Positions 3,784 through 61,060 of a stretch of DNA of 64,000 bases are shown one piece after another. The notes under the pieces were generated by a model. It saw only the letters and a list, made by a program, of their open reading frames with translations, searched no databases and was not told the origin of the DNA. A program made the position numbers and the translations under genes. Numbering within the stretch: the first letter of the stretch is position 1; every line of letters starts with the position of its first letter. Origin of the DNA: Leucobacter zeae (GTDB lineage Bacteria; Actinomycetota; Actinomycetes; Actinomycetales; Microbacteriaceae); contig NZ_QYAB01000001.1 in assembly GCF_016758175.1 (NCBI RefSeq), positions 887,066-951,065 of the forward strand, given 5' to 3'.

Positions 3784-3891
3784 CGCGACTGGAGTGCGCC
3801 GGCCCACCGCCCGCAACCGGAGTTCGCCGGCTCGCCTCCCGCAACCGGAGTTCGCCGGCTCGCCTCCCGCAACCGCAGTTCGCCGACCCAC
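3784..3891 (+). repeat. 28-bp tandem array, four units
   Basis: Units begin at 3784, 3812, 3840 and 3868, exactly 28 bp apart. Units 2 and 3 are identical (starting CGCAACCGGAGTTCGCC and ending GGCTCGCCTCC). Unit 1 is diverged and unit 4 runs into the left arm of the palindrome. No spacers separate the units, so this is not a CRISPR array. Confidence 0.9.
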
Positions 3892-3946
3892 TACGTATCC
3901 GTCGAGATGGCATCGGCGCCGATGCCATCTCGACGGGCCGGTAGTG
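3889..3946. repeat. Nested palindrome, copy A
   Basis: Perfect inner arms of 18 bp (CCGTCGAGATGGCATCGG at 3899-3916 and its complement at 3919-3936) flank a 2-nt centre. Outer arms CACTAC (3889-3894) and GTAGTG (3941-3946) are set 4 nt out on each side. A second copy with the same architecture lies at 60995-61052. The stem has no T-tract. Confidence 0.92.
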
Positions 3947-4070
3947 GCTCGTCGGGTCGAGAGGTCGGGTCGGTAGTGGGTCGTCGGCAAAGGACGGGCC
4001 GGTAGTGGGTCGGCGGGGTCGGGTGGCGGGCCGGTAGTGGGTCGTCGGGTCCAAGGGACGGGCCAGTGGG
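3941..4070 (+). repeat. ~30-bp array of GTAGTGG units
   Basis: GTAGTGG recurs at 3941, 3973, 4002 and 4034, with a decayed copy near 4064, each inside a GGGCCGGTAGTGGGTCGTCGG-like context (20 bases or fewer conserved). The spacing is 29-32 bp. The first unit is also the right outer arm of palindrome copy A, so array and palindrome appear to be one element. It ends about 100 bp before the xseA stop codon. Confidence 0.85.
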
Positions 4071-16987: not shown

Positions 16988-17033
16988 GAACGCACTGCAG
17001 CCGGCGGGATCTCCCGCCGGCTGCAGTGCGTTC
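16988..17033. terminator. Bidirectional terminator between ychF and the CNNM pair
   Basis: A perfect inverted repeat with 22-bp arms: 16988-17009 (GAACGCACTGCAGCCGGCGG, then GA) and 17012-17033, around TC. It sits exactly between two converging genes, 4 bp from the CNNM stop codon. Confidence 0.9.
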
Positions 17034-50575: not shown

Positions 50576-50636
50576 ACCGCCGGCGCTTCGGTCGCCCCGC
50601 GCATCGCGTGCGCGGGGCGACCGAAGCGCCGGCGGT
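50576..50636 (+). terminator. Intra-operon hairpin after receptor gene 2
   Basis: Perfect 28-bp arms (50576-50603 starting ACCGCCGGCGCTTCGGTCGC, and 50609-50636) around a 5-nt loop (TCGCG). It occupies the same place as the hairpin in operon 1: just after the receptor gene, before the permease. No T-tract; an mRNA processing or attenuation role is likely. Confidence 0.8.
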
Positions 50637-54600: not shown

Positions 54601-54656
54601 TCGACTGGCTCGGGCTCCGTCGAGCTCCGTCGGGCCGGCTGTGCTCCGTCGCTCGG

Positions 54657-54720
54657 TCAGGGATCCGGCTTCGGTGAGACGATGTTGCGGCATTCGTTCT
54701 CACCGAAGCCGGATCCTTGA
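54657..54720 (+). terminator. Long inverted repeat after operon 2
   Basis: Arms of 23 bp (54657-54679, containing GGATCCGGCTTCGGTGAGA; and 54698-54720) with one mismatch and an 18-nt loop. It lies between peptide operon 2 and the converging MFS gene. Position suggests a shared terminator, but the loop is unusually long and no T-tract follows. Confidence 0.6.
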
Positions 54721-54805
54721 CGTTTCGGCGGTGCACCGGCGAGGCCGACTGCGCGCTGGCGCCGACTGCGCGCCGACGCCGGTGCAGGCTGCGCGCCGAC
54801 GCCGG

Positions 54806-60780: not shown

Positions 60781-60854
60781 CGGGATGTGGCGCAGCTTGG
60801 TAGCGCACGTCGTTCGGGACGACGGGGTCGCAGGTTCAAATCCTGTCATCCCGA
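60781..60854 (+). tRNA. tRNA-Pro (anticodon CGG)
   Basis: 74 nt. The acceptor stem CGGGATG pairs with CATCCCG (60847-60853), with discriminator A. The D arm is GCGC...GCGC. The anticodon stem-loop is CGTCG-TTCGGGA-CGACG, reading anticodon CGG for Pro codon CCG, and the T loop is TTCAAAT. No CCA is encoded. It decodes one of the most used proline codons in such GC-rich genomes. Confidence 0.95.
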
Positions 60855-60860
60855 CTGCAA

Positions 60861-60903
60861 GGCCCGGAACTCCGTTGAGAAATCAACGGAGTTCCGGGCC
60901 TTT
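60861..60903 (+). terminator. Intrinsic terminator after tRNA-Pro
   Basis: Perfect 18-bp arms (GGCCCGGAACTCCGTTGA, 60861-60878; complement 60883-60900), GAAA tetraloop and TTT. Seven bases after the tRNA 3' end. Confidence 0.93.
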
Positions 60904-60953: not shown

Positions 60954-61056
60954 GCGCCGAGCCACTACCGGCCCGTCGGTGTCTTGCGCCGAGCCACTAC
61001 CGGCCCGTCGAAATGGCATCGGCACCGATGCCATTTCGACGGACGCGTAGTGACTC
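60954..61056. repeat. Nested palindrome, copy B, with tandem left arm
   Basis: Inner arms CCGTCGAAATGGCATCGG (61005-61022) and complement (61025-61042) are perfect, with centre CA. Outer arms are CACTAC (60995-61000) and GTAGTG (61047-61052), 4 nt out on each side. A 25-bp unit (GCGCCGAGCCACTACCGGCC then CGTCG) occurs at 60954 and 60986, giving CACTAC at 60963 and 60995, 32 bp apart. The same layout as copy A, in opposite orientation of the tandem side. Confidence 0.9.
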
Positions 61057-61060
61057 GACG

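Follow-up and report, generated by a model that had tools for sequence, protein, structure and literature searches.

The window studied here, a 64,000-nucleotide stretch of Leucobacter zeae DNA (positions 887,066 to 951,065 of contig NZ_QYAB01000001.1), contains two copies, A and B, of a nested palindrome that belongs to a family of hairpin-forming repeats dispersed in this genome. The repeats lie between genes, mostly at gene 3' ends, and keep their structure through paired changes, and two of them bracket a gene located 9.7 kb before the window (contig C1:876381-877391). This gene encodes a 336-amino-acid (336-aa) protein that, by predicted fold, joins an AbiEi-like winged helix in the N-terminal domain to a Vsr/homing-endonuclease-like (I-Bth0305I-like) C terminus. 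Hairpins of the family and hairpins beside homologous genes are built on a common 19-bp unit, and most of the dispersed copies tested match gene flanks of their own genome. It is probable that the hairpin family belongs with this gene, whose product likely binds the hairpins, likely cuts near them, and would copy them in trans.

Hairpin family in the L. zeae genome

Both palindromes were recovered at the positions given in the initial annotation (3889-3946 and 60995-61052), and the G/A difference between their arms is indeed a paired change. In the family alignment, the full unit measures 74 bp (CGCCGAS-CCACTAC-nnnn-CCGYCGAGAYGGCATCGGC followed by its mirror image). It exceeds the length first described, since pairing extends to CGCCGAS/STCGGCG beyond the outer arms. 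The inner core has 18-bp arms in copy B, and in copy A it is a perfect 19+19-bp palindrome. In either copy, the start of CACTAC and the end of GTAGTG are 29 bp away from the centre. The 4-nucleotide (4-nt) segment earlier called an offset is itself base paired in the family: its four positions are Watson-Crick paired in 20, 31, 22, and 22 of 37 aligned copies, and it pairs poorly in copy A. The features are as follows, in window coordinates.

3881..3954, no strand: copy A, full 74-bp nested palindrome, with outer CGCCGA..TCGTCG, CCACTAC/GTAGTGG arms, variable 4-nt linker, and 38-bp core
3899..3936, no strand: copy A inner core, perfect 19+19 palindrome CCGTCGAGATGGCATCGGC joined to GCCGATGCCATCTCGACGG
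3973..3978, minus strand: further outward outer unit GTAGTG, end 61 bp from copy A centre
4002..4007, minus strand: further outward outer unit GTAGTG, end 90 bp from copy A centre
4034..4039, minus strand: further outward outer unit GTAGTG, end 122 bp from copy A centre
60987..61060, no strand: copy B, full 74-bp nested palindrome
61005..61042, no strand: copy B inner core, 18-bp arms, 2-nt centre, paired G-to-A change
60963..60968, plus strand: further outward outer unit CACTAC, start 61 bp from copy B centre

Throughout the family, extra outer units stand at 19-bp or approximately 30-bp steps and are directed outward, except for those belonging to an adjacent element. Directly to the left of copy A (window positions 3796-3880), a unit of about 30 bp around CTCGCCTCCCGCAACCGGAGTTCGCCGG was noted by eye to recur as imperfect tandem repeats.

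The hairpin structure of copies A and B is not due to chance. Compared with shuffled sequences, their folding as single-strand DNA had z values of -6.5 and -7.6, and as RNA of -8.0 and -8.4, respectively. A covariance model found 43 sites (85 strand hits) in 3.47 Mb, and the inner arm with up to three mismatches matched 98 times, versus 3 for the reversed control pattern. The alignment comprised 37 of the 43 sites, with the hybrids L074, L086, and L097 and three others left out (L numbers denote loci; G000 is this genome, and other G numbers are other genomes). The 35-pair structure was formed in 87.5% of cells, and pairing fell to 28.5 to 47.0% when the partner was shifted by one to three columns. 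Double-change cells numbered 89 versus a shuffled mean of 38.6. The earlier suggestion of a dispersed hairpin family resembling repetitive extragenic palindromes (REPs) or bacterial interspersed mosaic elements, with structure kept by paired changes, is therefore borne out; the search found neither a family confined to the two window copies nor a lack of further covariation. In the three hybrids, outer and inner units are swapped or tandemly repeated at 19-bp steps. A strand bias of G-T versus A-C cells is visible in the alignment; with the majority of elements placed between convergent genes, a sense strand is undefined.

Genes around the sites were predicted with a home-made codon-usage caller rather than a standard annotator, and gene starts are approximate. 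None of 40 tested sites fell inside a predicted gene, and their context was convergent for 23, tandem for 11, and divergent for 6. Among intergenic regions of at least 100 bp in the window and in the DNA around the elements of this genome, 21 of 38 with an element were convergent versus 10 of 123 without one. Copy B, L085, and L097, which occupy divergent or tandem sites, are located downstream of a tRNA gene, at a distance of no more than about 160 bp; for copy B this is tRNA-Pro (60781-60855), followed by a terminator-like hairpin (60859-60902). The tRNA was the sole match above the gathering score in an Rfam scan of the window.

This placement raises the question of whether the repeats are bidirectional terminators or mRNA 3'-end hairpins that were homogenised by recombination, with the nuclease gene incidental. 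The convergent placement and the strong RNA folds fit such a role, as does the context of 49 element loci in other genomes (22 convergent, 21 tandem, 2 divergent, and 4 unresolved). No T run was seen by eye beside copy A or B; the placement of the family at gene 3' ends does hold. The sequence is conserved far beyond what a terminator needs, and copy B is preceded by a separate terminator-like hairpin. Together with the flank enrichment and the period described below, this makes a terminator origin decidedly unlikely.

Copy A has not been fixed by vertical descent as far as its surroundings show. No family palindrome was present downstream of the same flanking gene, which we take to be xseA-like, at any of 29 other Leucobacter loci covered (23 further matching genomes lay outside this comparison), and 5 of the 29 had another palindrome there. 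Spread on viruses was likewise rejected, with no pattern match in viral contigs, and so was spread on plasmids or phages, for which one element used as a blastn query gave no match.

The flanked gene and its predicted product

The 336-aa protein is predicted to have an AbiEi winged-helix domain and a Vsr-like fold in which conserved acidic and lysine residues are present and are predicted to be catalytic. The C-terminal fold and the conserved acidic residues are like those of Vsr, of homing endonucleases such as I-Bth0305I, and of Pfam REase_MTES_1575; these homing endonucleases are of the EDxHD type. PF18741 (REase_MTES_1575) was found in four of eight proteins scanned, below the cut-off. A PDB sequence search with A3 returned nothing meaningful, and NCBIfam had no family for the three proteins tested. 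Other Foldseek/VIA matches (mitoribosome proteins, Can2, TnsA, R2, and others) were disregarded as weak or as due to the common nuclease fold. In databases, the homologs are mostly named hypothetical and occasionally AbiEi-family antitoxin or very-short-patch-repair endonuclease. No further gene was called between both hairpins in G000, G006, G023, and G034, where no search aimed at AbiEii was made.

Palindromes beside homologous genes

Homologs of the gene occur in 45 of 54 Leucobacter genomes. We scored a palindrome as adjoining a gene when its score was at least 14, its loop at most 30, and its distance from the gene at most 350 bp. By this measure a palindrome adjoined 50/70 Leucobacter homologs and 36/39 homologs elsewhere, compared with 71/383 control genes, which were drawn from the window and, in 20-kb samples, from G025, G001, G003, and G050. 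Palindromes on both flanks were found for 17/70, 23/39, and 2/383, and a palindrome with a best period of 19 adjoined 37/70, 31/39, and 8/383, respectively. The 70 come from 105 Leucobacter match rows, among which a single gene can be represented by several fragments; in a second set, 30 of 36 rows were examined. When seven seed loci were removed, 43/63 Leucobacter homologs remained palindrome adjacent and 11/63 had palindromes on both flanks. The 39 homologs elsewhere come from two sources. In a phylum-wide sample not selected for repeats, the gene was found in 8 of 246 genomes including G000 (with a strict threshold and few candidates scored), and 9/9 loci were palindrome adjacent, 7/9 on both flanks. 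In 14 genomes chosen for having repeats, the values were 27/30 and 16/30. The arrangement of the gene between hairpins thus recurs, with different hairpin sequences, in other sampled Actinobacteria. The enrichment at one gene family is left unexplained if the hairpins are terminators.

A regulatory role is an alternative reading of this pattern. The AbiEi-like protein might repress its own gene through the flanking palindromes, the dispersed copies being a regulon or decoys and the nuclease domain acting elsewhere. In Streptococcus agalactiae, the promoter of AbiEi itself contains inverted repeats to which the protein is reported to bind (PMC3985639), which supports recognition of the hairpins by the winged helix but also supports the regulatory alternative. 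A palindrome is present upstream of 34/70 Leucobacter genes. However, downstream palindromes are equally common (33/70), and for 34 of 40 dispersed copies the adjacent genes are not divergent, indicating that most are not in promoters. A full hairpin with paired changes is also more than a plain operator requires, and we think it unlikely that the repeats are operators rather than mobile DNA.

The 19-bp unit and lineage dialects

The self-identity of 40-nt half-palindromes was maximal at a lag of 19. Mean lag-19 identity was 0.523 for 69 Leucobacter flank palindromes and 0.51 for 59 others, compared with 0.24 to 0.31 at the remaining lags in the tested range of 10 to 26. At lag 19, the mean for 67 control palindromes was 0.305; these include samples of G025, and a few of them could be genuine elements. 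Lag 19 was the best lag in 48/69, 47/59, and 6/67, respectively. The best lag was 18 for L342 and L344, and both hairpins flanking the L. zeae gene are decayed and weak in period score. In the family alignment, the YCGAS motifs of the outer and inner units are 19 columns apart. This common period is also left unexplained by terminators. Unit sequences vary from locus to locus, and the units seem to expand in tandem. At L214 (approximately 1600-1710), several tandem 19-bp units stand beside the G023 element and are mostly missing at the orthologous G006 site.

Seven of 54 Leucobacter genomes had a match to a model built from the L. zeae genome (R1), in at least 2 of them through false hits (L107 and L116 were coding-like and L105 was terminator-like). 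A model built from several species (R2) matched 17 of 54 Leucobacter genomes and 16 of 299 sampled family genomes, 2 of the latter being Leucobacter. Among the nearest relatives as judged by XseA-like protein identity, G050, G001, G051, and G005 had no R2 match and G006 had one. In the multispecies alignment, 89.3% of cells preserved the structure, and double-change cells numbered 159 versus 56.5 after shuffling, values that are partly due to how the sequences were found. The inner core with the G/A position left free matched seven stretches in GTDB r220 contigs, one in Leucobacter (G046) and six occurring singly in unrelated bacteria, which we took as chance-like.

The hairpins on either side of a given gene resemble each other: 39 of 40 such pairs exceeded the 95th percentile of 150 different-locus pairs. 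We then compared 43 hand-picked dispersed elements from 15 genomes, including 6 of the 43 sites of L. zeae, with the gene flanks of 39 genomes. Flanks of the element's own genome were the best match for 34 of the 43, including all six G000 elements. Of the nine misses, G025 L265 was a wrongly picked palindrome, and G006 L212 and G023 L214 are from sister species with one dialect. The others are G052 L247, G024 L201, G017 L213, G004 L205, G043 L207, and G028 L208; the gene copies of G028 were not among the flanks compared.

A gene between like repeats looks like an insertion sequence, and each positive Leucobacter genome has one to six match rows of the gene. The hairpins could then be passive remnants, similar to miniature inverted-repeat transposable elements, left by a classical insertion sequence of which the gene was formerly part, and the 19-bp units old transposase sites with no present activity. 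However, each flank is a whole hairpin and not a single arm of an inverted pair. Five species keep the gene beside the same neighbour, presumably an HrpA-type helicase gene, while the hairpin sequence varies between lineages, and the dispersed copies tested in G052, G025, G006, and G023 are mostly of local sequence. The fixed neighbour, the differing hairpins, and the local copies suggest continuing turnover, and a purely passive origin is highly improbable.

Comparison with known systems

REPIN-RAYT systems are described as inverted doublets that form hairpins and often show compensatory changes, each gene having a single repeat flavour and being low in copy number and vertically kept; their enzyme is a Y1 transposase (PMC3116915 and PMC8049555). 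The Leucobacter repeats are similar in being many dispersed, extragenic inverted doublets that form hairpins with compensatory changes, with cognate copies of one type beside a low-copy gene. They differ in that the enzyme is a winged helix plus Vsr-like nuclease, the arms are made of 19-bp units that vary between lineages, and the hairpins are often on both gene flanks. A Y1 (HUH) tyrosine transposase of the RAYT type had been suggested in the initial annotation, but PF01797 had no match in the whole genome, whereas 5 of 14 control genomes were positive. With the same outward signs and no Y1 transposase found, the system works like REPIN/RAYT but is not a member of it.

In contrast to the AbiEi antitoxin of type IV toxin-antitoxin systems, the Leucobacter protein has an additional Vsr-like nuclease domain. 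In contrast to Vsr and EDxHD enzymes, it is fused to an AbiEi-like domain and is linked to dispersed hairpins and not to an intron, an intein, or mismatch repair. The resemblance of its C terminus also takes in the "Novel Vsr-REase" of PMC3710099. A search of open papers found none in which REP-like repeats are linked with AbiEi, DUF559, or Vsr-like genes.

Other hairpins

Two window hairpins that are long and near-perfect (16988-17033 and 50576-50636, scores 22 and 28) are unrelated in sequence to the 43-site family. Window positions 54656-54721 and L151 15381-15438 of G001 have the common inner arm GGCTTCGGTGAG, an 18-nt loop, and different paired outer arms, and are possibly a second hairpin family common to the two species. 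Another palindrome family in G052, GGGTCAGTTTCTGGTA..TACCAGAAACTGACCC with varying paired outer arms, had four copies in 200 kb sampled.

L130 12265-12324: G052 GGGTCAGTTTCTGGTA..TACCAGAAACTGACCC copy
L133 1888-1955: G052 copy of the same family
L133 15727-15788: G052 copy of the same family
L135 3985-4034: G052 copy of the same family

Proposed explanation

Homing endonucleases spread their own sites by cutting and repair. We propose that the winged helix would read the 19-bp unit as a dyad in a hairpin or cruciform, and that the nuclease would cut the hairpin or DNA close to it. With another copy serving as the repair template, the repeats would then spread and be homogenised, so that every lineage may come to have a sequence dialect of its own. 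Survival of copies would be expected mostly between convergent genes, a place in which one more hairpin may be least harmful.

Several observations limit this explanation. Homologs of the gene are present in 17/17 R2-positive Leucobacter genomes but also in 28/37 R2-negative ones, so that presence alone is a weak link. Twenty of 70 Leucobacter homologs, some of them high scoring, have no nearby palindrome by our measure. The paired changes could stem partly from template switching. In the empty-site search, the element was present in both sister species, and no mobility event was caught.

Roughly evenly balanced, in our judgement, is the broader idea that this is a second, independent REPIN-like genome parasite or partner, in which hairpins of Actinobacteria are written and rewritten by a homing-endonuclease-like protein bearing an AbiEi winged helix, whose DNA specificity shifts so fast that all hairpins of a lineage simultaneously carry its own 19-bp dialect. 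REPIN/RAYT is the standard example in which a single-copy gene maintains short hairpins, and its logic recurs here with an unrelated enzyme. Proteins mostly named hypothetical thereby gain a candidate DNA substrate. The lineages provide a natural series of enzyme-site pairs with differing sequences, and the concerted evolution of dispersed repeats becomes directly testable.
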